From positions 1-40,312 of IMG/VR virus record IMGVR_UViG_3300017782_000057: a DNA stretch of 40,312 nucleotides; one strand, 5' to 3'. The position numbers and the translations under genes are program-made. The notes beneath the pieces are model-generated. The model did not search any database. It had not been told where the DNA came from and worked only from the letters and a program-made list of their open reading frames with translations. Position 1 is the first letter of the stretch. Every line of letters starts with the position of its first letter. Source of the DNA: a virus. This document shows positions 12,547-36,708 of this stretch, in pieces.

Positions 12547-12633
12547 ATGCACGGTTTACCTAGGGAGGTTGGTGGAATTGTTAGAGTGAACGGTTGACGG
12601 GGAAAGGACGAGTTCAAATGTCATCTTACCAAT

Positions 12634-12685
12634 AGCTAGGATTCTGAGAGAATTACGAGAGGTTCGCAACCTTACCTAGCTACCA
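12634..12685 (+). ncRNA. tRNA-like element with CCA end, divergent
   Basis: AGCTAGG (12634-12640) pairs with CCTAGCT (12675-12681), followed by A and CCA (12682-12685) as in a mature tRNA 3' end. Inside are a small hairpin, ATTCT-GAG-AGAAT (12641-12653), and a T-arm-like GG-TTCGCAA-CC at 12661-12671 with a 7-base loop. There is no room for normal D and anticodon arms. The T-stem has one mismatch and a G-U pair, and the loop lacks the conserved A at its fifth position. It separates the structured region from the ArdC-like gene leader. It may be a relative of the three clearer elements downstream or just a hairpin. Confidence 0.35.
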
Positions 12686-12734: not shown

Positions 12735-13787
12735 ATGGCTAAATTCAAAAAGAAGTTCACACCAATCACAGAGCAAGAGCATATCGACAGAGTATGTAAA
12801 CCTATTCTCGATTCAATGGAGAAGGGACAAGTACCTTGGCATAAACCTTGGGACGTGTCACTCAATGCTCAGGGCAATCTAGTAGCAGGTGTCCAAAAAT
12901 CCCTATCCTCAGGGAAGTTGTACGAGGGTTTTAATAGCTTAATATTATCTATAATAGCTAATCAAGAACAGTACAAGAACCAATATTGGGGAACTTACCT
13001 CGGTATCAAAAAATCAGGTGGTCAGATTCGCAAAGGCGAGAAGGGTGTCTATGTCCTCAAGTGGGATTTCATTCCTGTCGTCAAAGGTCAAGACGATTGT
13101 ACCAAGTGTAAGGGTGCTATTGTCTACGTGAAGGGCAAGAAACAGCCTTGTACGAAATGCGAATCAGAGAAGATAAGAACATCTATCAAGATGTACTCTT
13201 CTGCTGTATGGAATCTTGACCAAGCCGATTGGGCTGACGGTGTCCCTGAGAAGTTCAGACCTGCAAAGCCTAAGAAAGTAAAAAAGCCGACGAAGAAAGA
13301 AGAGCAGGCTCGTATCAACCGAGTATGCAAAGAGGCTCAGAAGGTAATTGATGCTTATATCCCTCAACTCAGAGGTGGTCTTACCGACGAGAAGATAGAG
13401 AGCAATGATGCTTATTATTCTCCATCAAGAGATGCGATAGTTGTCCCTGCTAAAAAGCAATACCCAAGAATCGAAAGTTATTACAGGGTAGCTTTTCACG
13501 AGATGGTTCACTCAACAGGTCACAAATCTAGGCTCAAGAGATTCAAAGAGTATAGTAATCATATGCACGGGTCAGCCGACTACAGCAAAGAAGAGTTTGT
13601 TGCTGAGATAGGTGCTTGTGTATTATCTAGTTTCTTTGGCACAGAGACAAGTGTCGACCTAGAGAATAGTGGTGCTTATCTTCGCTCTTGGAAGAAGGGT
13701 TTAGCGAACAACAAGAAAGACATCGTCTTCGCTATAGGTCAGGCTATGAAAGCAGTTAATTTCATAGTCACAGGCGACAAGAAGTAA
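12735..13787 (+). CDS. ArdC-like antirestriction protein: ssDNA-binding domain plus zinc metallopeptidase
   Basis: The 350-residue protein has the two-part layout of ArdC-type proteins. Residues about 12-115 match the N-terminal ssDNA-binding domain (GQVPWHKPWD at 31-40, GFNSLILSI, YWGTYLGIKKSGGQIRKGEK). The C-terminal half holds the peptidase motif HEMVH (255-259), preceded by YYRVAF and followed by STGHKSRLKR, with a later EEFVAEIGA that can supply the third zinc ligand. An insert between the halves carries CTKC (122-125) and CTKC (139-142), a zinc-ribbon-like unit. ArdC family proteins shield incoming DNA from restriction and some are delivered with it. As the first gene of the plus block, after a clear AAGGAG site, it is likely made very early. 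Substrate of the peptidase is unknown. Confidence 0.88.
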   Translation: MAKFKKKFTPITEQEHIDRVCKPILDSMEKGQVPWHKPWDVSLNAQGNLVAGVQKSLSSGKLYEGFNSLILSIIANQEQYKNQYWGTYLGIKKSGGQIRKGEKGVYVLKWDFIPVVKGQDDCTKCKGAIVYVKGKKQPCTKCESEKIRTSIKMYSSAVWNLDQADWADGVPEKFRPAKPKKVKKPTKKEEQARINRVCKEAQKVIDAYIPQLRGGLTDEKIESNDAYYSPSRDAIVVPAKKQYPRIESYYRVAFHEMVHSTGHKSRLKRFKEYSNHMHGSADYSKEEFVAEIGACVLSSFFGTETSVDLENSGAYLRSWKKGLANNKKDIVFAIGQAMKAVNFIVTGDKK

Positions 13788-13804: not shown

Positions 13805-13864
13805 AGGGTCAATGGTTCAAGAGGGAGGTTCGATTCCTCCCTGACCCTCTACGCACTATGCGTA
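13805..13864 (+). ncRNA. tRNA-like minihelix 1 (acceptor stem + T-arm) with 3' hairpin
   Basis: AGGGTCA (13805-13811) pairs with TGACCCT (13842-13848). GGGAGG (13823-13828) and CCTCCC (13836-13841) form the T-stem around the loop TTCGATT, a perfect T-loop consensus. The two stems abut on the 3' side, making 13 stacked pairs; only 11 bases join them on the 5' side, so D and anticodon arms are absent. One C separates the element from a second hairpin, TACGCA-CTA-TGCGTA (13850-13864). It starts 17 bases after the ArdC-like stop codon and precedes an A-rich leader. It resembles the minimal substrate of RNase P. It is not a decoding tRNA. Confidence 0.75.
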
Positions 13865-13872
13865 TATTAAAT

Positions 13873-13892
13873 AACACAAAAACACGAAAGGG
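13873..13892 (+). promoter_or_regulatory. A-rich leader with ribosome binding site (copy 2)
   Basis: AACACAAAAACACGAAAGGG lies just upstream of the ATG at 13901, with AAAGGG as the ribosome binding site. It follows tRNA-like element 1 and its hairpin. Confidence 0.55.
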
Positions 13893-13900
13893 TTTCTATT

Positions 13901-14203
13901 ATGGAAAACATACTTGACAAGTGGATGATGTTAGCTTTTGATATAGTTATAAAGCATCCACATTTAGACGAACTATACAGAGGCTATGGCGAGCACTACG
14001 AAGATTTCTTTGCTTATGCAGAGGAAATTGGTGGTTCAGATATGAACATTTGCCTAGATGCTTACTTCAAAGATAATAACACAACTTGGGAGAAAGAACA
14101 GACTTTCTTTGACGAGATAGGCTTGTCGATGAAGTGGTTCTTCAATCAGCATACTTGGATAGAATCTTTTCAACTAACAACAGCAGGAGAGTACAATGAG
14201 TAA
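13901..14203 (+). CDS. Small acidic early protein of unknown function (100 aa)
   Basis: A 100-residue acidic protein rich in aromatic residues: MENILDKWMMLAFDIVIKHP, then YGEHYEDFFAYAEEIGGSD and a TWEKEQTFFDEIGLSMKWFF segment. The pattern suggests a compact helical protein. No cysteine pairs, membrane segment or catalytic motif is visible and no family is recognised. Its end overlaps the next gene by eight bases, so the two are translationally coupled. Small acidic proteins in early phage operons often act on host enzymes or mimic nucleic acid, but nothing specific shows this here. Confidence 0.7.
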   Translation: MENILDKWMMLAFDIVIKHPHLDELYRGYGEHYEDFFAYAEEIGGSDMNICLDAYFKDNNTTWEKEQTFFDEIGLSMKWFFNQHTWIESFQLTTAGEYNE

Positions 14204-14720
14204 ATTACTATGGCAGTTTTTTGGAACAGGAATCGAGTGGAGAGAGTGGTTTTCTTGTGTTGCACAGCAACGAGAGAAGACACCAACTAGGTTCAGATTT
14301 TACAGGAATCTTCACAAGTCAGGAGAGACTTATTCTTTGCAAGGATATTTCAAAGGCTTTGGATGGAGAGTGATTGGTTACTTTCAATACATCAGCTTGG
14401 AGAACGTCGACAACCTGAAGTTTATTGTCAACAAGCGAGGCAGAGATAAAGTCATCAAAGAGCAACGCAAGAACGTGCACGCATTTATAGAGTTTTCTAT
14501 TAATGAAAACAGCGTAGTCGATTTCGACAGGGACAGAGTTGGTTTTAATATGCTACCCTATGCGATGACAAGTCTACCCGTGAAGTACAACCCGTACAAG
14601 TTCGATTGCTTTCAGGTGATGAATCCTTGGGGGTCAATACCGACTATGCCTATCAAAGACGCAACAGGCTATAACAGGCTCTTTGTCAAGCCTAATCGAG
14701 GAGTGGAGATTCAGGCTTAG
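14196..14720 (+). CDS. Early protein of unknown function (174 aa)
   Basis: The 174-residue product is basic in its first half (REKTPTRFRFYRNLHKSGET), with a KGFGWRVIGYFQYISLENVD beta-rich centre, then an RGRDKVIKEQRKNVHAFIEF helix-strand and a Pro/Asn-rich tail. It looks globular and soluble, with many aromatic residues. I recognise no family. The ATG follows an AGGAGAG site lying inside the end of the upstream gene. tRNA-like element 2 starts 14 bases after its stop. Confidence 0.72.
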   Translation: MSKLLWQFFGTGIEWREWFSCVAQQREKTPTRFRFYRNLHKSGETYSLQGYFKGFGWRVIGYFQYISLENVDNLKFIVNKRGRDKVIKEQRKNVHAFIEFSINENSVVDFDRDRVGFNMLPYAMTSLPVKYNPYKFDCFQVMNPWGSIPTMPIKDATGYNRLFVKPNRGVEIQA

Positions 14721-14734
14721 TATATTATATAATA

Positions 14735-14778
14735 AACCCTGCTTGGAGTTTACATAGGTTCGAGTCCTATGCAGGGTT
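14735..14778 (+). ncRNA. tRNA-like minihelix 2 (acceptor stem + T-arm)
   Basis: AACCCTG (14735-14741) pairs with CAGGGTT (14772-14778). CATAGG (14753-14758) and CCTATG (14766-14771) enclose the loop TTCGAGT, a perfect T-loop consensus. The connector is 11 bases. Geometry (7+6 pairs, 7-base loop) equals that of element 1 although every stem sequence differs, so pairing is conserved by compensating changes. It is followed by CTCTTTTT, so an intrinsic terminator role is also conceivable. A TATAAT at 14728-14733 lies just before it. Confidence 0.75.
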
Positions 14779-14786
14779 CTCTTTTT

Positions 14787-14804
14787 AAACACAAAAACAG
14801 GAGG
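14787..14804 (+). promoter_or_regulatory. A-rich leader with ribosome binding site (copy 3)
   Basis: AAACACAAAAACAGGAGG is followed by five bases and the ATG at 14810. The GGAGG and spacing favour ATG 14810 over the in-frame GTG at 14804. Confidence 0.55.
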
Positions 14805-14809
14805 TGCAA

Positions 14810-15031
14810 ATGCACTTAACAAAAACAAAACAAGCCAAGAGATTGGCACGTAGCAAGCGTATAAAAAAGCAAGCTAATATGAAGAGAAACACGAGAACTG
14901 TTTCAACAGGTAGCAAGCTAGTAAAACCGTTTGCTGTAGAAGAAGTCAAGCAGGAGCAACGTGAGACCAAAGCGATGGAACAGCAAGGCTTATTAAATAA
15001 ATTCAAGAACATATTCAAGTCAAGCAAATGA
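14810..15031 (+). CDS. Small basic protein (73 aa)
   Basis: The protein begins MHLTKTKQAKRLARSKRIKK and its N-terminal 40 residues are extremely Lys/Arg-rich, suggesting nucleic-acid binding. The C-terminal half (VEEVKQEQRETKAMEQQGLL, then NKFKNIFKSSK) is a probable amphipathic helix. No family is recognised. The GGAGG site five bases upstream defines the start. The stop overlaps the next start as ATGA, so both proteins are translated together. Confidence 0.65.
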   Translation: MHLTKTKQAKRLARSKRIKKQANMKRNTRTVSTGSKLVKPFAVEEVKQEQRETKAMEQQGLLNKFKNIFKSSK

Positions 15032-15321
15032 GGTGGCTAGAGAGGTTTATGGTTTGGCTTATAAAACCAATCGAGTTACTGAGGAGCGAGATACCCTGCA
15101 AGCATAGTGAATGGCAAGCAGAAGGTAGTCCTAAGATGATTGACCACACAACGGGTTATCAAATCATACCCGAGTGTAGCTGTCACGTAGGAGACTCGCT
15201 GTTTGACAAAGCAGTAGACAGGTGGGATAAAGTTATGCAATGGATGTTTATATATATAATAATATCATTCGGCATAGTCTTAATCCAATTTATTATTCTC
15301 TTGTTTGCTAACTCAAACTAG
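15028..15321 (+). CDS. Small membrane protein with cytosolic or periplasmic Cys/His region (97 aa)
   Basis: The N-terminal two thirds contain PCKHSEW, then a DHTTGYQIIPECSCHVG segment that could bind a metal through Cys/His. The C-terminal third is a strong membrane helix (MFIYIIISFGIVLIQFIILL) with a short FANSN tail. This tail-anchored layout suggests a membrane-associated early protein, for example one altering the host envelope or excluding other phages. That function is inferred from topology only. Coupled to the upstream gene through ATGA. Confidence 0.65.
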   Translation: MRWLERFMVWLIKPIELLRSEIPCKHSEWQAEGSPKMIDHTTGYQIIPECSCHVGDSLFDKAVDRWDKVMQWMFIYIIISFGIVLIQFIILLFANSN

Positions 15322-15334
15322 TTTAACTTATCAG

Positions 15335-15354
15335 ACAACACACAAAAAAGGAGG
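15335..15354 (+). promoter_or_regulatory. A-rich leader with strong ribosome binding site (copy 4), aimed at an ATC codon
   Basis: ACAACACACAAAAAAGGAGG ends in a full AAGGAGG. Five bases later comes ATC AGT AAA at 15360, in frame with the following gene; no ATG, GTG or TTG is near. No tRNA-like element precedes this copy. Confidence 0.5.
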
Positions 15355-15359
15355 TTACT

Positions 15360-15692
15360 ATCAGTAAACAAACACAAGCACAAAGATGGGTAAAATGTAT
15401 ACCCGATTACTTGCTAGGTTTCCCTGAACCAATCGAGCAGTACGGTACTTTGGTTCGAGAACCTAACGGGAAAGAATACTTTCATCCAATAGTTAAGATT
15501 GACCCTATCGAGGGTACAGTTAGCTTTGGAGAAAAGCATCCTAACTCTATGTTGCGAGTCGTCGATGTCATTAAGACCTACTCTAAACCACAGGATTGTT
15601 GCAGAGAATGGGTAGGCTCAAAACCTGAGCGTATTAAAAGATACAAGCAACAAATCAAGCAGTTGAAGAGGAGAGTTTCTTATGGCAGATAG
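15360..15692 (+). CDS. Early protein of unknown function, probable non-canonical ATC start (110 aa)
   Basis: The frame is open from upstream of 15360. A perfect AAGGAGG sits five bases before ATC AGT AAA CAA ACA, the typical place for an ATG AGT AAA start. The first ordinary alternative is TTG at 15411, which has no ribosome binding site and would remove 17 residues (SKQTQAQRWVKCIPDYL region). The protein has a beta-rich centre (EQYGTLVREPNGKEYFHPIV) and a basic C-terminus (ERIKRYKQQIKQLKRRVSYG). No family is recognised. ATC starts are rare, so either this is a deliberately weak, IF3-sensitive start or the ATG was lost by mutation or sequencing error. Confidence 0.6.
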   Translation: MSKQTQAQRWVKCIPDYLLGFPEPIEQYGTLVREPNGKEYFHPIVKIDPIEGTVSFGEKHPNSMLRVVDVIKTYSKPQDCCREWVGSKPERIKRYKQQIKQLKRRVSYGR

Positions 15693-15975
15693 GAATAAAT
15701 ACCCACCAACTCACACAGCAAAGCAGTTGGCTTACGAGTATGCTAAAGCACATCCTAGGAAAGTTATTAATTCCGATGGTACGATTCAGCAGAAAGGAAA
15801 GAAGTGGCATTGTCCACGAGTAACGCCTGTTAATTTATGCAGGACACTAGTGGACATAGGCTACTTGTACAAACGAGTAAAAGGCTCACCTTGGAAGTGG
15901 GTGGATGAATACAAAGTTATGAATACTGTTCGTTCATTCCCTTACGAGAAAGAGGACATCATTCGTGAAGTATAA
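15682..15975 (+). CDS. Small basic early protein (97 aa)
   Basis: Starts MADRNKYPPTHTAKQLAYEY and contains AKAHPRKVINSDGTI and a TPVNLCRTLVDIGYLYKRVK segment resembling a winged-helix-like core: helix, short loop, then basic strand. Net charge is positive, so DNA binding is plausible but unproven. A GAGGAG site lies upstream of the ATG, which overlaps the end of the previous gene by 11 bases. An 18-pair hairpin starts 22 bases after its stop. Confidence 0.65.
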   Translation: MADRNKYPPTHTAKQLAYEYAKAHPRKVINSDGTIQQKGKKWHCPRVTPVNLCRTLVDIGYLYKRVKGSPWKWVDEYKVMNTVRSFPYEKEDIIREV

Positions 15976-15997
15976 CTCGCTTTGGATTAATATAACT

Positions 15998-16036
15998 CTT
16001 ACCCTTGAGCAGGTTAGCAACTTGCTTAGGGGTAAG
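15998..16036 (+). ncRNA. Perfect 18-pair hairpin with 3-base loop between early genes
   Basis: CTTACCCTTGAGCAGGTT (15998-16015) pairs over its full length with AACTTGCTTAGGGGTAAG (16019-16036), using three G-U pairs around the loop AGC. There is no T-tract, so it is not an intrinsic terminator. It takes the same gene-boundary position as the tRNA-like elements and would be a good RNase III-type substrate or an mRNA-stabilising hairpin. Confidence 0.65.
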
Positions 16037-16074
16037 ATAACCCTTAAACAAACAAAAGACAGGATAGCACTACT

Positions 16075-16263
16075 ATGGCGATTGTAAAAGAATGGCAACC
16101 TAAAAGCGAATACGCTAAGGAAAAGGTTGACGAGACCAAGATGGTTAAGCTGAGTATTACTGAAATGGATTGGAGACAACTAAAGTCTAAAGCAATCTTG
16201 AAAGGAATTACCGTTCAGGATTTAGCAGGACAAGTTCTACGAGAACATATCTTCAAGCACTAG
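16075..16263 (+). CDS. Ribbon-helix-helix-like DNA-binding protein (62 aa)
   Basis: The C-terminal 40 residues (MVKLSITEMDWRQLKSKAIL, then KGITVQDLAGQVLREHIF) match the ribbon-helix-helix pattern: a short strand with alternating residues (VKLSI), an amphipathic helix, a G-I-T-V turn and a second helix with the L-x-x-x-V-L-R end. Such dimers bind DNA through the paired strands and often repress their own operon. The first 22 residues are a charged extension. The ribosome binding site is weak (AGGA about ten bases before the ATG). tRNA-like element 3 begins 16 bases after the stop. Confidence 0.72.
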   Translation: MAIVKEWQPKSEYAKEKVDETKMVKLSITEMDWRQLKSKAILKGITVQDLAGQVLREHIFKH

Positions 16264-16279
16264 GTAGTATATAATAACA

Positions 16280-16343
16280 AGCCCTGCAATATGCACAAGT
16301 CAGGTTCGTACCCTGAGCAGGGCTCTATGGCAACTACGCCATA
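16280..16343 (+). ncRNA. tRNA-like minihelix 3 (acceptor stem + T-arm) with 3' hairpin
   Basis: AGCCCTGC (16280-16287) pairs with GCAGGGCT (16317-16324). TCAGG (16300-16304) and CCTGA (16312-16316) enclose TTCGTAC, a near T-loop lacking the conserved A at position five. The total is again 13 stacked pairs with a 12-base connector. After a single C comes TATGGC-AACTAC-GCCATA (16326-16343), the same arrangement as after element 1. A TATAAT at 16270-16275 lies just before it. Confidence 0.7.
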
Positions 16344-16372: not shown

Positions 16373-17281
16373 TTGAGAAAGTATATACCAAACAACGAGT
16401 TACATCGTACAGCAGTAGACCTTGTAGCTAACCTAATTACTGCTATTAAAAACCACCCTGAGTATGGTGCTTTTGAGATTCACAAAGTCAGTAGACCTAC
16501 TGTCGAAGAGATTACAAAGAAGTCACTAGGCAAAGAGTACAAGCACAGCAGAGTCCATTGTGGAGATGTTTATATATATACTTATATAAAAACACCACTA
16601 GGTCAGAGCGTTAAGCTAAAAGTTGGTATCGAGTGTGGTACTGACAACTCTAGTTCTTACGGTTCTGACAGCAGATACTCTGACATCAAAGACCTCTATC
16701 GAGTTGGAGACCTTGGTGTTGCTTATGGTAATAAAATAAAGCAATTAAGAAAGCCTGAAACAGCTATCGAATATGCTTTAGAGTTACTTAAAGACAAGTA
16801 CAATTCTGCTGAGAAAGACATCAATAAGAATACTCGTAGATGGTGGGCTTATAAGCATCTTACTAATGAGTTCAATGTTAAGCCTAATCTTAGAGGGCAA
16901 ACGTGGATACATTCTGCTACCATCAGATTCGACCAACCTAAGTGGATGAGAAACGAGTGGGATGATTATAGCTTACTTACAGACCAAACCTTTGATTACG
17001 TTATTGGTTTAAAGTTCGATGATGATGAGAGACAATCAGAACCTACTACTTGGAGGTACAGAATACTTCAGAGTCGTGGTAAGGACACCTACTTCGAGAC
17101 AGCAGAGCAAGTTAAGGAGTACATATCAAGAGATATATATAACCTTTGTTGCGAGGTATGGAATATAAATACTACTCGTGAGATGATGTTCAAGCACCAC
17201 GACAAGACATTCAGAGACCTAGCGTTTATGGATGGAGATGGATATTCTGATGACTCTGACAGATTGGATTGTCAGAAATGA
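16373..17281 (+). CDS. Early protein of unknown function (302 aa), TTG start
   Basis: A TTG at 16373, six bases after AAAGGAG, is the best start because no ATG lies near this strong site. The 302-residue product begins MRKYIPNNELHRTAVDLVAN, has a central beta-rich part (VHCGDVYIYTYIKTPLGQSV and KVGIECGTDNSSS), a Lys-rich helical part (ELLKDKYNSAEKDINKNTRR), and an acidic tail (MDGDGYSDDSDRLD). There is no recognised domain, membrane segment or catalytic signature. The stop overlaps the next ATG (ATGA). It is the largest unknown in the plus block. Confidence 0.75.
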   Translation: MRKYIPNNELHRTAVDLVANLITAIKNHPEYGAFEIHKVSRPTVEEITKKSLGKEYKHSRVHCGDVYIYTYIKTPLGQSVKLKVGIECGTDNSSSYGSDSRYSDIKDLYRVGDLGVAYGNKIKQLRKPETAIEYALELLKDKYNSAEKDINKNTRRWWAYKHLTNEFNVKPNLRGQTWIHSATIRFDQPKWMRNEWDDYSLLTDQTFDYVIGLKFDDDERQSEPTTWRYRILQSRGKDTYFETAEQVKEYISRDIYNLCCEVWNINTTREMMFKHHDKTFRDLAFMDGDGYSDDSDRLDCQK

Positions 17282-29790: not shown

Positions 29791-32700
29791 TCATCTTGTG
29801 CGAGTTCTTCTCGACCTTCTAGTCTTTCTTCTTGATTTTTTTCTATAACCTGAATTTTCAGACTCTTTTTTATTTCCATATTTTTCTTGTAAAACTACAC
29901 CACGACCTATACCAAATCTTTCAGGTCTCTTACCCCACCAATCTTCGTTCCACCAATATAAATGTTTACCAAGCAAAGGTATGTGGGTATATGTTCTAAG
30001 ACCTGTTTTTTCTATGTGTTTTCTAAGAGCAGGCATTCCACCTTTTACATATTTTTCAGTAGATGTATAAATGTCTTTAACAAAAATATCATTAGCTGTT
30101 GATGTTATTGGTGGCAAAGCTAATCCAATAATGGCATTATCAATACCTTCTCTCTTTGCTTTCCAAAATGTAAACTTACTTAGACCTACCATTTTTAATA
30201 AATTGCCAAGTAACCTATCGCTAATGTCTGTCTCCCTACCTGCTATAATATCCTTTAATTCATCTGTTCCTGCCTCAGCCATTACTAAGGTGGTTATAAG
30301 ACCAACTAATCTTACCATATATTTTTTTCTATTGTTTATCATCGCTATGGTGTCGCCTGCCTCTTTTGCCTCAGCATACTGTTTATTTATATAGGCAACT
30401 TCATCTCTCCATACATCAAATCTTTTTAACATAAATGTTTTTAACTGATATGCTATTCTCCCGTTTGGCATATTTAAATAACCAACGGGAACTTCAGACC
30501 TACCAATAGGTTGAACCTTAAGTAACTCCGTATACGACAACAGCATTATTATTTCACTATTATTATTTTCTTTTAAGTCGGTAAGAATTTGAGATATTTC
30601 TTCTGAATTAAAAGACTGCTGTAATCTATAAATAAAGTCCGAATATTCTTTCTTTGTAGGGTTTTTTGCTAGTGTTCTAAACTTTGATATTGTTGCATTT
30701 ACGGTTGTATCCTTACCAATCTTATCCATACGCTCTAGCTGAACCTTTTTAAAGACCCATTGTAAGGCATTTAATATTTTATTTTTTCCAATCTCAGGCT
30801 TTATTTCCTCTGCTATAGAATCAACACCGTAGTCGTCTCTAGCGATAAAATTATTATCCTTCTTGCCTCCAAAGTTATATATCATAGCAGAGGTTAAAGC
30901 CTTAATTGTTCTATACCCACCTGTAGGTATTCTAAATAATCCCCTGTCTCCTGCTCTCCATACTGAAAGACCAACATCAGCAATCTGAGTAACTGCTGAA
31001 AAAACAGAGCCCATAGAAGTAATATATCCTATGCTTTTAGCGTGGGCTACAAAAGGGCTTGATTTACTTTTATTAAAATATGCTTGCAATAAAGTTCTCA
31101 TCCTAGCCTCAGAATCTTTACTAAGACCATATTCTTCCATAGCCTTTAACAAGAAAGAATCTATAGTATATTCCATCCCGACTAATGGAATCCCTTGTGC
31201 ATCTAAATGGATTTTTACCATTTTTTTCATTGCGTCAAAAGCATCACGCTTGTTTTTAAATTTTAATCCTGTAGCATCTTTACCTGAATGTTTATGTGCT
31301 ACGATAAACTGACTACCTTGTTTCCTTACGGTAAACTTACTTTGTCCTAAAAATCTCTTACCTGCTATAGCCTCAGTTACCTGAGCCATATAAATACCAA
31401 GAGCATCGTATGTTGGTGCATAAAAAGTATTAGCATTATCATTCAACGTATTTATTTTTCTAATTTTAAAATTATCAGGGTTTGTTGTATTTGCACCTGC
31501 TCTACCTAGTAACACACGTTGCATCACTTCAACTTCTTCTTCCAAGCTAAGAACTCTTTTTATGTCTTCGCTTGATTCTTCAATCTGTTCTGATATTGCT
31601 TTTTTGTCTGATTCGTTTGCAACGTATTCTAATAAATAATTTTTTAAAGCAACGTGGTCTACAACGCTCCTTGGAAAATAATCTTGTAATACTCCTGAAT
31701 CAAATCCCAAGGCATCCTTATCTATTGCTATTTTATCAAGTCTTTTTCGTGCTTTTAGTACATCCTCATATAAACCGTACTTTTCCAACAAGGGTCTTAT
31801 TTCAGTATATTTTTGATTTTTTAAACCCTTGTCTATATTTAAATAATCATTTCTAACCATCATATCTTTATCAGACTTCTTATGCAATGCTTTTAGTTTT
31901 TTTATTAATGGGTCAACGTCAGCCATTGATTCATTATAATATTTTAAACTATAGAATTGAAATCTTCTAAAAAGAGCAGGTAGTTTAGGGTGAAGTTTTC
32001 CAACCTGCGTACTAAAGGTAACTAAATAATCCTTCCATTGTTTTGGTGCGTATAGTTTTTCATATTCCTTTTGTTGTTTTTTAGAATCCTTTGATGCGTA
32101 CTGTGCTCCAAATTTTCTATACGGTCTTATTCCGTCTCGTGGCTCTTCTTCGTTTAAATCTATTCTTCCGAGAGTTGCCCCTTCAGAGGTTGGGGAGACC
32201 GTGCTTTCAAATGCTCTTTTGCCACTTCCTCGAATATACGCTCCTTCTCGTCCGTTAGGTTTAGCGACTTCAGTATTTTGATTACTGCTTGAGGTGTTAC
32301 GTCTTTGCTCTGCTCTGATTTCCGAGTAACTGCCATAATCTGACTCCTTCATTTGTTTTTGTGACTTTGCATTTTGATTAAGGTACATTGCTTTTTCCAT
32401 ATACCACAGCAAAGCCTGAGTTTCCATAGCTGATAGTTTTCTACCCATTGCTTTAGTTACTCTTTTGTCATTGGATATGCTTTCAATAATATCTCTAAAT
32501 AATAAAAAGTTTTGACGACTACCCGGAGCATCATACATCTGTGTGGTATTTGAGTTAGGTGCAAAATAGTTATCTCCAAAAAGCCTACCTACGTCCTTAT
32601 TGGTTTGCTTATATGGCTCTCCTAACCATCTGTTTATTTGCCTAGTCATCCATAAGTCTATAGTAGAAACATCAGATTTACCTAAAAGGTTAGCAACAAA

Positions 32701-35700
32701 TGTTCCAACTTTAAATCCAAAAACCTCTGCCCCGTAAACACCATCAGCTATTTCTAAATGTTGGAATCCTTCCTTGTTGCCAATACTTTCAGTTTCTTGA
32801 CCAATCTGATTTAAAATACGATTTATATCTCTAGGGTCGTGCCTTGTACTTATCCACTCAATAGTCTTTTTAAATGAATTGTTAAATACTTGTTCTTTTA
32901 AATCATATAACATTTCGATATTTAAAGCTATTGCGTTAGGCATTTTTAATACCTCCCCATCTAGCTTTGTAAAATATTTATAGTTACCATCTCCCTCTTC
33001 TGTTTTAAACTCAGGTCTCCCCTTTTGTTCTATATGCTTATATATATTAACAGCATATATGTAGTTATTATCAACAGCTTGATTTGGAGAGGTTAAACCT
33101 AAAAGAGTTCTAAACAATAATTGATTATCAGCACCATATTTTTTGTCTAATAAAGATGGCAATTCCCCTGCTCCTGTTACCCTTATTGCTTTATCAACTG
33201 CTACCGTATACCAATCAATAGAAATGTCTATATATTTTCTTCCGTCTATATCTTTAATAGCCCCAAGGGTATCAAATACTGAAAGTAGTTCATCTTGAAT
33301 TTCTAAGACACCTGTCTCGGTTGCTCTTTTTACAAACTCTTGATATTCCTCTCTTGTAAAAGTAGTGTTATCAACATTCCAAGATTTAGTATTTTTATCC
33401 CATTGTCTACGCATACCCTGTTTAGCATCTCCTAGGTCTCTGTCTATAGCTTGGAATTGTACGAAAGATGGTGTTTGTTGTCCCTTCCCTTTAAAAACTA
33501 ATTTGTTTTCTGTGCCCCATTTATTGTTTTTAAAATTTGTTTTACCAAATAGTCCTGAATGCCTTTGGGTAACTTTTTGAGGGGTAGAGCGTTGTTCTCC
33601 TTTTGGCAACTTAATACCCGTAGGCACATCCTTACCAATCATAAAATCAATAATTTTATTTCTCTGCCTAGTCGTAGTACCCTTAGGTAGATTTATTTCA
33701 AAAGTACCATTAGGTAACATTTTACGAAAAGCATCGGTAACTATATTAATAAAGGCTCTGTCTACCTTTGTATTTGTTAAGGTAATGCTCTCTGTTAATT
33801 TGGTTGGTAGCCAAAGACCTATATAAGCACCTTCTGTTTTATCTTTACCTTTGCTGTCTTCAAAAAACTCCTGTATTGCACTTAGATGGTCTCCCTTCTT
33901 ACCCTTGTTTTGGACAGGAAGATTTAAGTCCTTTGTTATTTCTTTTAATACTTGTAATCTTGTTGCAGGCATTATTGCTTGTGCAACTTCAGGGTTCTGA
34001 CTTAATATATTTAAGATTCTAGTTCTTGAAAACTCTTGATTCTTTAAATTATTAACTTCTTCATTGTTTTTCTTTATAATATTAGAATCTTTATCTACTT
34101 CATTTATTTCTTTAACTACTTCATCTAGCGTTAACTGCTCCCCCATTAATTTCTCAAGACCTTTCATCTTCACAGTTCTTTTAACTATGGGTTTATCTTC
34201 TGCAACATTTTCATCTACTTCAGGAACTTTAAAAAGTTCTCCTTGGTTATTGTCTATGCTTACCCAAACATCTTCATTAGTTGCAGGTGGAATCCTAAGT
34301 TCTGCTTGGTCTAAAGGTATTCCTGTTGTCTCTCCTTCTAATAGAGCATATAACCTACCTGACGAATCAGGCTCTATACTTATTATCTTTTTAGGAGTCC
34401 CAAATTGGTCAGCACCATTAACAATCCATTGTACGAAATCATCAACCTCAGGTAACCCTTTAGGGTTAGCGTTATATTTTCCATCTATTTCTTCTATAGT
34501 CACAGCAGGTCGAGAAAGAACGCTCATAGGTTCTGTAAGGTTTACTGATGAACCTTGCTCAGGTAGCTGTAACATTTCAGACTCACGCTCCTGAATGCCC
34601 ATTAATTCAGTAATAATATTTGTACCATCTTCTCTTTCAAATTGAGCATCAAATCTTTCTGCTAACTCTTTAGGCAATGATAAAGTACCTGTGTTATTTT
34701 CTTCCTGTTGACTTGTAAGCCCTAGGTACTTATAGACAAAAGATTTGCTAAACAGTTCCCTGCCTTGAAAATTACTGCTTTTTTCTTGGTTGCTTTGTAT
34801 CCAAGCATCTATATCATTAAACAAGACAGGGTCAATGTCTTCTAATCTTCTCATTACTGCCTCAGAAACGTCCTCTAATACTGCCTCATTTGAGGCGTTC
34901 CTACCAAATATTACATTTACCGTTCCGTCAGATTCTTGAAAGTTAAAAGCCTCAGGAGACAGTAAATACTGATTGCCACCTGTTTCGTTATCGTATCTAG
35001 GGTTATCTTTTTCTATTTGAGCATCTTTATAATCTTTTGGGTTGTAACCAATATCTATTAATTCTTGTTCTGAATATGTATCTACTAATTGTCGGTCACT
35101 AAACAATATTTTTGTTTTGTCTTTTAAGGCAGGCAAAGCACTAGCTGACCTTAAAAACTCTGAAAATTCATCTGATAGTTCAGACGTTGCATTTTCTTTA
35201 GCCTCGGCTCGTGACTCATATTTAACATAGACTTCCTCTAATAACTCGTCTATATTTCTTTGCTCTCCGGCTACAAGAGTTCCAACGCCTTCAAATGTTC
35301 CACCACCTATAACACCAATGGCAAACGCTTTTTTCATCTCAGGGTCTAGCTTTCTAACATCTAATACTAACTCCGGATTATCTATTTTATCGTCAGCTAC
35401 AGCCCTTCCTAAATCTTGAAAATATCCCTGTAAAACTTCTTCATAACCCTCAGCTAATACACCTGCTCCAATACCTGCACCCCTAAACCAATTACCAAAA
35501 TTATTGGCAAGCCTAAAGGGTAGTCTGCCATATATACCAAATAACTGAAGACCATCAGAAACCATTAATGTTTGATTGCCTAAATAAACAGTTCTCCCTG
35601 CTAGACCTGCCTCTTCATCTGAGTACCCTAATTCTTTCATATGATTCCACGTACCACCTGCTTCAATTAAAGCCTCTGCTTGTCGTCCACCTAATGCACC

Positions 35701-36708
35701 TGCTACAGATGCTGATATTGCCTCTCCTGTTCTTAATTTTTTTACTGCCCCTGCACCTGTCCTTGTACCTCTCCAAGCCTTTTCTATGTTAGCAAATCTC
35801 TTTGCGTGTGGTAATGCTTTATATACTCCTGCCCCTACTCTACCAAATCCAAAATATGGTATCATTAAAGAAAGCATAGATGGTATTGCTGTTGGGGCAT
35901 CTATAGTCCAAAAGTCTTTACTTGCTATATGTTCCCAATTAAACTCAGCATCATTTTCTCTTTCTACCGTATTTACTTTTCTACCTGCCTCTCCCCATTC
36001 GGCAATATCTTTACCAACATCTAATCCCCACCAATCTAACATACCTCCTAAATCAGAAACCATACCATAGCTACCTGCTTGCATAGAGTCTACAAATTTT
36101 CCAATATTACCTTGGCTTACATTTTCGGGCGTAGTTGGTTTTCTGTTTCCAAAAGAACCTGTTAAGTCTTCTACAGTTAATTCGCCTGAGTTTAAATTAC
36201 TGTCTATCTCCTTAGCCTTGTCAGGGTACATTTCTATTAAGGCATCATAAAAATAGTTTGTCTCTATTTGGTTATCAACATTTCCAACTGCACTTTCTAA
36301 CTCGACTTTTTGACTTTCGTATGCTTTATACGTATCTAAGTGACCTGCATAATTTCTAAGTTTTTGTTGTTCGTCAGGAGTTATGTCGTCGAATGATGCG
36401 TTATTCCCGTAGACATAGTTTTTAACAAACTCTAATGTGTTGCCATTTGACTTATCCCATTGATTGTCTATAATAGCTTGACCAACAGCCAAGCCACTAT
36501 CTAATGTTGGGAAAGCAGGTCTAGGCATAACCTCTCCCCCTGCGTTTGTTATATTAGGGGAAAGACCACTACGAACAGCCCCGTACTCAGACATCCAATC
36601 CGTATATACAGAAACCCCATAAGGGTTATTAAAGAACATTGAATCGGGAGTTTCAAAGTCGGGATTTTCAAACGATGCTACACCGTCATATAGCCATTTA
36701 TTTTCCAT
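29791..36708 (-). CDS. Giant internal virion / ejected polyvalent-type protein (2305 aa)
   Basis: At 2305 residues it is the largest gene and takes the place of the gp16-type ejection protein. Visible parts: N-terminal 400 residues with hydrophobic segments (IPSMLSLMIPYFGFGRVGAG, AFAIGVIGGGTFEGVGTLVA); a small beta unit near 760; a SAP-like helix pair near 950 (RLQVLKEITKDLNLPV); a helical domain about 1120-1400 (LLGLTSPNQAVDNNYIYAVN, STIDLWMTRQINRWLG) like one seen in phage polyvalent proteins; a basic linker; and a C-terminal region (GRSEVPVGYLNMPNGRIAYQ, then DVWRDEVAYINKQYAEA) typical of large polyvalent proteins, ending in an Arg/Lys-rich tail (KKSRRKTRRSRRTRTR). It is probably packed with the genome and ejected. 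Domain names are from memory and should be tested by profile search. Confidence 0.78.
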   Translation of the reverse strand: MENKWLYDGVASFENPDFETPDSMFFNNPYGVSVYTDWMSEYGAVRSGLSPNITNAGGEVMPRPAFPTLDSGLAVGQAIIDNQWDKSNGNTLEFVKNYVYGNNASFDDITPDEQQKLRNYAGHLDTYKAYESQKVELESAVGNVDNQIETNYFYDALIEMYPDKAKEIDSNLNSGELTVEDLTGSFGNRKPTTPENVSQGNIGKFVDSMQAGSYGMVSDLGGMLDWWGLDVGKDIAEWGEAGRKVNTVERENDAEFNWEHIASKDFWTIDAPTAIPSMLSLMIPYFGFGRVGAGVYKALPHAKRFANIEKAWRGTRTGAGAVKKLRTGEAISASVAGALGGRQAEALIEAGGTWNHMKELGYSDEEAGLAGRTVYLGNQTLMVSDGLQLFGIYGRLPFRLANNFGNWFRGAGIGAGVLAEGYEEVLQGYFQDLGRAVADDKIDNPELVLDVRKLDPEMKKAFAIGVIGGGTFEGVGTLVAGEQRNIDELLEEVYVKYESRAEAKENATSELSDEFSEFLRSASALPALKDKTKILFSDRQLVDTYSEQELIDIGYNPKDYKDAQIEKDNPRYDNETGGNQYLLSPEAFNFQESDGTVNVIFGRNASNEAVLEDVSEAVMRRLEDIDPVLFNDIDAWIQSNQEKSSNFQGRELFSKSFVYKYLGLTSQQEENNTGTLSLPKELAERFDAQFEREDGTNIITELMGIQERESEMLQLPEQGSSVNLTEPMSVLSRPAVTIEEIDGKYNANPKGLPEVDDFVQWIVNGADQFGTPKKIISIEPDSSGRLYALLEGETTGIPLDQAELRIPPATNEDVWVSIDNNQGELFKVPEVDENVAEDKPIVKRTVKMKGLEKLMGEQLTLDEVVKEINEVDKDSNIIKKNNEEVNNLKNQEFSRTRILNILSQNPEVAQAIMPATRLQVLKEITKDLNLPVQNKGKKGDHLSAIQEFFEDSKGKDKTEGAYIGLWLPTKLTESITLTNTKVDRAFINIVTDAFRKMLPNGTFEINLPKGTTTRQRNKIIDFMIGKDVPTGIKLPKGEQRSTPQKVTQRHSGLFGKTNFKNNKWGTENKLVFKGKGQQTPSFVQFQAIDRDLGDAKQGMRRQWDKNTKSWNVDNTTFTREEYQEFVKRATETGVLEIQDELLSVFDTLGAIKDIDGRKYIDISIDWYTVAVDKAIRVTGAGELPSLLDKKYGADNQLLFRTLLGLTSPNQAVDNNYIYAVNIYKHIEQKGRPEFKTEEGDGNYKYFTKLDGEVLKMPNAIALNIEMLYDLKEQVFNNSFKKTIEWISTRHDPRDINRILNQIGQETESIGNKEGFQHLEIADGVYGAEVFGFKVGTFVANLLGKSDVSTIDLWMTRQINRWLGEPYKQTNKDVGRLFGDNYFAPNSNTTQMYDAPGSRQNFLLFRDIIESISNDKRVTKAMGRKLSAMETQALLWYMEKAMYLNQNAKSQKQMKESDYGSYSEIRAEQRRNTSSSNQNTEVAKPNGREGAYIRGSGKRAFESTVSPTSEGATLGRIDLNEEEPRDGIRPYRKFGAQYASKDSKKQQKEYEKLYAPKQWKDYLVTFSTQVGKLHPKLPALFRRFQFYSLKYYNESMADVDPLIKKLKALHKKSDKDMMVRNDYLNIDKGLKNQKYTEIRPLLEKYGLYEDVLKARKRLDKIAIDKDALGFDSGVLQDYFPRSVVDHVALKNYLLEYVANESDKKAISEQIEESSEDIKRVLSLEEEVEVMQRVLLGRAGANTTNPDNFKIRKINTLNDNANTFYAPTYDALGIYMAQVTEAIAGKRFLGQSKFTVRKQGSQFIVAHKHSGKDATGLKFKNKRDAFDAMKKMVKIHLDAQGIPLVGMEYTIDSFLLKAMEEYGLSKDSEARMRTLLQAYFNKSKSSPFVAHAKSIGYITSMGSVFSAVTQIADVGLSVWRAGDRGLFRIPTGGYRTIKALTSAMIYNFGGKKDNNFIARDDYGVDSIAEEIKPEIGKNKILNALQWVFKKVQLERMDKIGKDTTVNATISKFRTLAKNPTKKEYSDFIYRLQQSFNSEEISQILTDLKENNNSEIIMLLSYTELLKVQPIGRSEVPVGYLNMPNGRIAYQLKTFMLKRFDVWRDEVAYINKQYAEAKEAGDTIAMINNRKKYMVRLVGLITTLVMAEAGTDELKDIIAGRETDISDRLLGNLLKMVGLSKFTFWKAKREGIDNAIIGLALPPITSTANDIFVKDIYTSTEKYVKGGMPALRKHIEKTGLRTYTHIPLLGKHLYWWNEDWWGKRPERFGIGRGVVLQEKYGNKKESENSGYRKKSRRKTRRSRRTRTR

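Follow-up and report, generated by a model that had tools for sequence, protein, structure and literature searches.

tRNA-like minihelices between early genes of uncultured phages: a structured RNA element that may punctuate polycistronic messages

What lies between the early genes of an uncultured phage, and could it serve to divide their common transcript? The question arises in IMG/VR record IMGVR_UViG_3300017782_000057 from an uncultured virus, whose 40,312 bases (G+C 37%) are called the window here. Three short stretches of its plus strand, each between a stop codon and the Shine-Dalgarno sequence of the next gene, can fold into an acceptor-like stem stacked on a T-arm. A preliminary description took them for minihelices of acceptor stem and T-arm by which host tRNA enzymes cut the early mRNA. 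Elements of the window are designated W0 to W3, and loci or records of relatives carry L-numbers. The three minihelices are listed below, with slashes between their successive parts.

13805 to 13848, plus strand: W1, tRNA-like minihelix, AGGGTCA / ATGGTTCAAGA / GGGAGG-TTCGATT-CCTCCC / TGACCCT
14735 to 14778, plus strand: W2, AACCCTGC / TTGGAGTTTAC / ATAGG-TTCGAGT-CCTAT / GCAGGGTT
16280 to 16324, plus strand: W3, AGCCCTGC / AATATGCACAAG / TCAGG-TTCGTAC-CCTGA / GCAGGGCT, with a degenerate T-loop and no YGG

The coordinates first given for the three are correct, and their reported anatomy was confirmed on inspection: 13 stacked pairs in each (7+6 in W1, 8+5 in W2 and in W3), connectors of 11, 11 and 12 bases, loops TTCGATT, TTCGAGT and TTCGTAC, A as first base and TCT as last bases, and a start 17, 14 and 16 bases after the upstream stop codon.

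Recognition and conservation of the elements

Relatives were collected as 80 more or less distant loci with terminase alignment A5, and elements were sought with a descriptor that specifies a loop of 7 nucleotides (nt) beginning TTC, 13 pairing steps and a 5' insert of 0 to 18 nt. Over 773 kb of relatives the descriptor returned dozens of elements scoring 14 to 15.7, against a shuffle maximum of 13.1; W1 to W3 score 14.8 to 15.4. They are the only strict TTC-loop matches on either strand of the window, first-order Markov shuffles of which give 0 to 3 matches of any such architecture per replicate. Their folding z-scores are -2.1, -2.8 and -3.4. As a held-out test, the covariance model R1 was trained on 22 elements from relatives outside the clade of the window; its top matches in the window are W1 (E = 1.4e-11) and W2 (E = 1.9e-10). 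W3 scores weakly (12.6 bits, E = 0.64, not significant), A58 being gone from its loop and TGG missing from its connector. Orthologues of W3 behind the same gene in L138 and L142 reach E values of 7e-8 and 3e-6; W3 is a degenerate copy whose membership rests on its position and these orthologues. In L044, L046 and L055 the same ArdC-like gene is followed by an orthologue of W1. At the same boundaries in these three loci the stems differ yet pair, with double changes, and the T-loops of the W3 orthologues are regular. W1 to W3 are not due to chance.

About 42 distinct elements were obtained from terminase relatives. Across 42 distinct elements the covariation score is 0.936, compared with at most 0.243 for slid partners; 11 of the 13 pairs vary on both sides, 191 cells hold double changes, and 99.5% are paired, a percentage inflated by the selection of these elements for pairing. 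The covariation score in the out-of-clade set is 0.861. A check free of selection was made on every GTTCRANTC motif of the family loci: 51 of 64 on the early strand lie within a 13-step stem, as do 0 of 14 on the opposite strand. The outer pair is A-U in 41/41 T-loop matches, compared with 31/119 hairpins having other 7-nt loops, and the base after the helix is C in 41/41 T-loop matches; neither feature was a selection criterion. The preliminary description had named as its own check that pairing at gene boundaries be kept by compensating changes in related phages, and such changes are strongly in evidence. Structure, conservation, covariation and position can all be read from the sequences, and we regard structure and conservation as near certain.

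This record bears on the thought that the elements are decayed tRNA genes or fragments of attachment sites. A tRNA 3' end is indeed present in temperate relatives as the probable attP, but that site is separate and without a 13-pair helix, and compensating changes at nearly all stem positions indicate a maintained structure, which refutes decay as a general account; we give it almost no credence. A remnant of attP or integration was rejected on account of the same separate tRNA 3' end.

Anatomy and likeness to tRNA

The T-loop consensus is GTTCRANTC, and the bases typical of a tRNA T-arm are nearly invariant (G53-C61 in 42/42 elements, T55 and C56 in 42/42, A58 in 41/42). The 3' strand always measures 13 nt between the end of the T-loop and the conserved C, the distance from 61 to 73 in tRNA. 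The junction within the helix slides, leaving T-stems of 4 to 9 pairs, and the total number of pairs is constant. The connector is 0 to 14 nt long in all T-loop elements, with no anticodon arm; in a variant at L149 4399-4431 the 13 pairs run on without a break and the connector is missing. GG is present in the connector of 39/41 elements, within a YGG loop that in most has 2 to 4 complementary flanking bases (GCAtggTGC, GTAtggTAC, GAAtggTTC, GAGCtggtGCTC). The mini D-stem around YGG averages 1.86 base pairs (bp) versus 0.98 in controls, none of 2000 controls being as high. This mini-hairpin could be a shrunken D-arm whose GG docks on the T-loop to give a tRNA elbow. Of the earlier picture of acceptor and T-arm only, the lack of an anticodon arm stands; the connector, with its YGG mini-hairpin, does not fit it.

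Bases 73 to 75 read U-C-U/A in 42/42 elements, and CCA is absent from all 42. A second hairpin, often with loop AATTAA, begins 1-2 nt past the helix in 41/47 unique elements, followed by an A-rich stretch and the Shine-Dalgarno sequence, and the start codon lies 29-58 nt from the element. The window has two such hairpins:

13850 to 13864, plus strand: second hairpin TACGCA-CTA-TGCGTA, directly 3' of W1
16326 to 16343, plus strand: second hairpin TATGGC-AACTAC-GCCATA, 3' of W3

W2 has CTCTTTTT directly 3' and no clear second hairpin. At the place of the W3 second hairpin L046 has an unrelated one, GAGTCA-AGA-TGACTC.

Several identities were tried and rejected. A promoter with the element at +1 fails because relatives have not kept the TATAAT-like boxes that precede W2 and W3, and an intrinsic terminator because at least five T within 8 nt after the stem occur in only 1/47 elements. 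Full tRNA genes were not found: neither ARAGORN nor Rfam at the gathering threshold gives a tRNA in the window, and under the Rfam tRNA model RF00005 W1 scores 19.6 bits, compared with a gathering threshold of 29, with W2 and W3 not listed. One ARAGORN call, a tRNA-Phe at L177 8416-8487, overlaps an element, so annotation pipelines may list such elements as tRNAs. No Rfam family matches the elements at gathering, lax thresholds giving sub-threshold matches only. The preliminary description knew of no such phage family, and we likewise found none in Rfam or in the open-access literature, subscription papers being mostly outside the scope of that search. The elements look like a new structured RNA family.

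Punctuation and competing explanations

Each element may be regarded as an anticodon-less tRNA mimic within the early mRNA, in which a T-loop caps 13 acceptor/T pairs and a tiny D-arm is usually present. T-loop, elbow-like GG and fixed length are the features by which tRNA enzymes gauge their substrates. In the polycistronic early transcript each mimic would be a target at which the host's tRNA-processing enzymes cleave. To such tRNA-like punctuation, with a 3' cut as the main event, we assign roughly even chances; elbow formation, cleavage, the enzymes and the benefit, separate and stabilised mRNAs, are what we infer. RNase Z would most probably make this cut, on the 3' flank just behind the invariant U at position 73, and the downstream mRNA would then begin C-U or C-A, followed by a protective hairpin, the A-rich stretch and the Shine-Dalgarno sequence. 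A hairpin 1-2 nt from the 5' end is a common stabilising arrangement of mRNAs. RNase Z cuts after position 73 if CCA is absent, and a U no further than 2 nt past the discriminator stimulates the B. subtilis enzyme ~200-fold (PMC10100781). CCA is missing in 42/42 elements and 33/42 have U at +2; RNase Z on the 3' side is a better fit than RNase P on the 5' side. A cut by the latter, at the invariant A-U pair or beside it, may occur where the upstream stop codon lies outside the element.

The preliminary description had argued from length for RNase P, more strongly than the sequences allow. Hairpins of acceptor and T-arm serve efficiently as RNase P substrates (PMC11143913), the D-loop is dispensable (PMC11143913, PMC4919913), and tRNA-His and tRNA-Sec have 8-bp acceptors (PMC11143913). 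The conserved stack, however, is 13 pairs and not 12, a number reached only if the outer A-U is read as a -1:73 pair. This weighs against tRNA-like punctuation, as do several further points. For the RCCA contact that bacterial RNase P makes, U73 without CCA is ill suited. The stop codon of the preceding gene reaches into the helix past A-1 in 7/45 elements, where a 5' cut would remove the stop and yield a non-stop mRNA. As to RNase Z, 9/42 elements carry A instead of U at position 75. Finally, other boundaries of the same operons use a three-way junction, a 19-bp hairpin or pseudoknots, so a general structural role in the 5' untranslated region would also suit. In the window these are:

12633 to 12682, plus strand: W0, a three-way-junction leader that precedes the first early gene
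15997 to 16037, plus strand: near-perfect 19-bp hairpin, not of T-loop type, at another early boundary, kept in L046 and L055

W0 consists of an outer 8-bp stem, ATTCT-GAG-AGAAT and AGGTT-CGC-AACCT, and its outer stem has compensating changes in L043, L044, L046 and L055. Similar leaders occur at L169 5702-5654, L177 9170-9122, L185 8950-8902 and L176 5195-5147; across the group the first early boundary, in a conserved position, has such a leader instead of a T-loop minihelix. Early genes of the temperate sister clade are preceded by H-type pseudoknots that share one architecture and show compensating changes in both stems. Their form is ACCCT a GCCGGG g AGGGT aa CCCGGC, then AAAGATTTTTCTTAA, then the Shine-Dalgarno sequence, and no Rfam match was found for those in L148 or L149. 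They lie at:

L148 844-869, 1135-1164 and 2460-2485
L149 120-145 and 1545-1574
L145 16169-16141
L141 8151-8125
L144 15371-15396 and 16830-16855

This variety suggests that the elements and hairpins might act uncut, as structural insulators that shield the mRNA from 5'-3' or 3'-5' exonucleases or keep translation units apart, with no endonuclease involved; the stop codons that overlap some elements suit this too. The conserved T-loop, the GG in the mini D-arm, the exactly 13 steps and the A...UC identity combined with free stem sequence would go unexplained, and we hold insulation to be unlikely, though deserving of consideration. The 19-bp hairpin raises another matter. In T7 the polycistronic early mRNA is cut at gene boundaries by RNase III; its sites there differ in structure and have no T-loop. 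The hairpin at 15997-16037 would suit RNase III and might be such a site, and the elements too are hairpins at early boundaries. Yet 13 pairs, usually with an interruption of 9-14 nt, are short for that enzyme, and neither T-loop nor D-like GG is among its determinants, which makes RNase III processing of the elements very improbable.

Arrangement along the genome agrees with tRNA-like punctuation. In L177, L176 and L169 a leader element opens the early block, after which genes and elements alternate and few boundaries are bare, and this plain order, with the three boundaries in the window, upholds the earlier notion of gene-by-gene punctuation. Up to five or six copies occur per genome. Copy number and tRNA-like shape would also befit decoys acting in trans, which titrate host tRNA enzymes or distract defences that target tRNA; the strict placement between stop codon and Shine-Dalgarno at early genes and the linked second hairpin point to a role in cis, and decoys seem to us a far-fetched explanation.

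On the terminase tree, elements occur in most members of one large clade and in one member of its sister clade, a tally from which a threshold kept out one weak element (L053) and in which the shortness of several contigs prevented a verdict. When all viral contigs were scanned for the pattern, further elements turned up in the phage L341 (TerL identity 31%), and three in L350, a siphophage-like record with an unrelated terminase. No gene is common to all element-bearing records, some of which are fragments. A phage-encoded processing factor was rejected on that ground, and the distant or unrelated terminases together with the lack of a common gene suggest that a host factor recognises the elements. 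The same absence, with the same partial records, speaks against a further idea, that of a regulatory site: a phage or host protein, or RNA polymerase, would bind the T-loop hairpin together with its neighbour and so govern how each early gene is translated or antiterminated. Two hairpins so close together (1-2 nt) resemble the HK022 put RNA, which is bound by RNA polymerase, and the location 29-58 nt ahead of start codons also favours such a role. Antitermination, though, does not need a copy at each gene boundary, and stem sequences are unconstrained; a regulatory site of this kind is rather improbable. For tRNA-like punctuation in its widest form, we put the chances just short of even: uncultured phages of at least three terminase lineages would have in common an RNA class not described before, a tRNA with a mini D-arm and no anticodon arm, as modular punctuation at which host tRNA enzymes cut polycistronic mRNA at gene boundaries and give downstream mRNAs a protective 5' hairpin.

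Setting, precedents and significance

The minus strand of the window encodes portal, terminase, a DnaD-like helicase loader and tail genes. It also encodes, at 29791-36708, a protein of 2305 amino acids with no PHROG match, partly conserved in relatives. The small-gene block lies on the plus strand at 12.7-18 kb, an ArdC-like anti-restriction gene coming first. Its genes next to the elements are:

12735 to 13787, plus strand: ArdC-like anti-restriction gene, upstream of W1
13901 to 14203, plus strand: early open reading frame, 100 amino acids, between W1 and W2, no family found
14196 to 14720, plus strand: early open reading frame, 174 amino acids, Pfam Phage_L5_gp82, upstream of W2
14804 to 15031, plus strand: early open reading frame, 75 amino acids, downstream of W2
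16075 to 16263, plus strand: open reading frame, 62 amino acids, upstream of W3, conserved within the clade
16373 to 17281, plus strand: open reading frame, 302 amino acids, downstream of W3

The nearest isolates are Pelagibacter phages with a terminase identity of only ~36%, which places the window phage in an uncultured group; no element was found in HTVC033P or HTVC115P, whose TerL is ~36% identical. Element-bearing phages are mostly marine and uncultured. A search for the host through prophages gave no TerL relative in a scan of genome contigs and no close TerL among sets of 101, 369 and 385 genomes. The temperate relatives L149 (12296-13407) and L148 (10380-11475) have an integrase and a helix-turn-helix repressor, and their probable attP, in the same intervals, is a tRNA 3' end (AGGGTTCGAATCCCTCTCTCTCCA); its core is too common to point to one host.

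tRNA punctuation as an idea is already known, from mitochondria, for which it is textbook knowledge, and from t-elements. Animal mitochondria likewise have tRNA-shaped elements between genes, sometimes over stop codons, as sites for RNase P and RNase Z; the phage elements differ in not being tRNAs (they have no anticodon arm), in belonging to DNA phages, and in that their cutting is a proposal. Plant mitochondrial t-elements are tRNA-like sequences at mRNA ends, cut by RNase P and RNase Z, CCA-tailed and uncharged (PMC11658184). Those are homologous to tRNA genes, whereas the phage elements are short, stand at most early boundaries and cannot be traced to a tRNA, the window giving no match to one at threshold with Rfam or ARAGORN. 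The RNase P model substrates of McClain and Altman, reportedly synthetic, with 12 pairs and CCA, also unite acceptor stem, T stem and T-loop in one hairpin; the phage elements have 13 pairs and U73-C74-U/A75. A single acceptor-T hairpin suffices for RNase P cleavage at the canonical site, and the C4 antisense RNA of P1/P7 and M3 RNA are non-tRNA phage RNAs cut by host RNase P (PMC11143913). These are single small RNAs and not repeated gene punctuation. In Mimivirus, intergenic hairpins set mRNA ends by cleavage (PMC4402537), a rule that differs in its long palindromes, viral enzyme, polyadenylation and eukaryotic setting.

The motif is an RNA family that annotation tools can mistake for tRNA. 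If tRNA-like punctuation is the right account, a minimal tRNA mimic in a bacterial virus would tie phage gene expression to host tRNA maturation, and the family would offer dozens of naturally occurring minimal RNase P and RNase Z substrates. Compact phage operons would thereby obtain separate mRNAs without promoters or phage nucleases.

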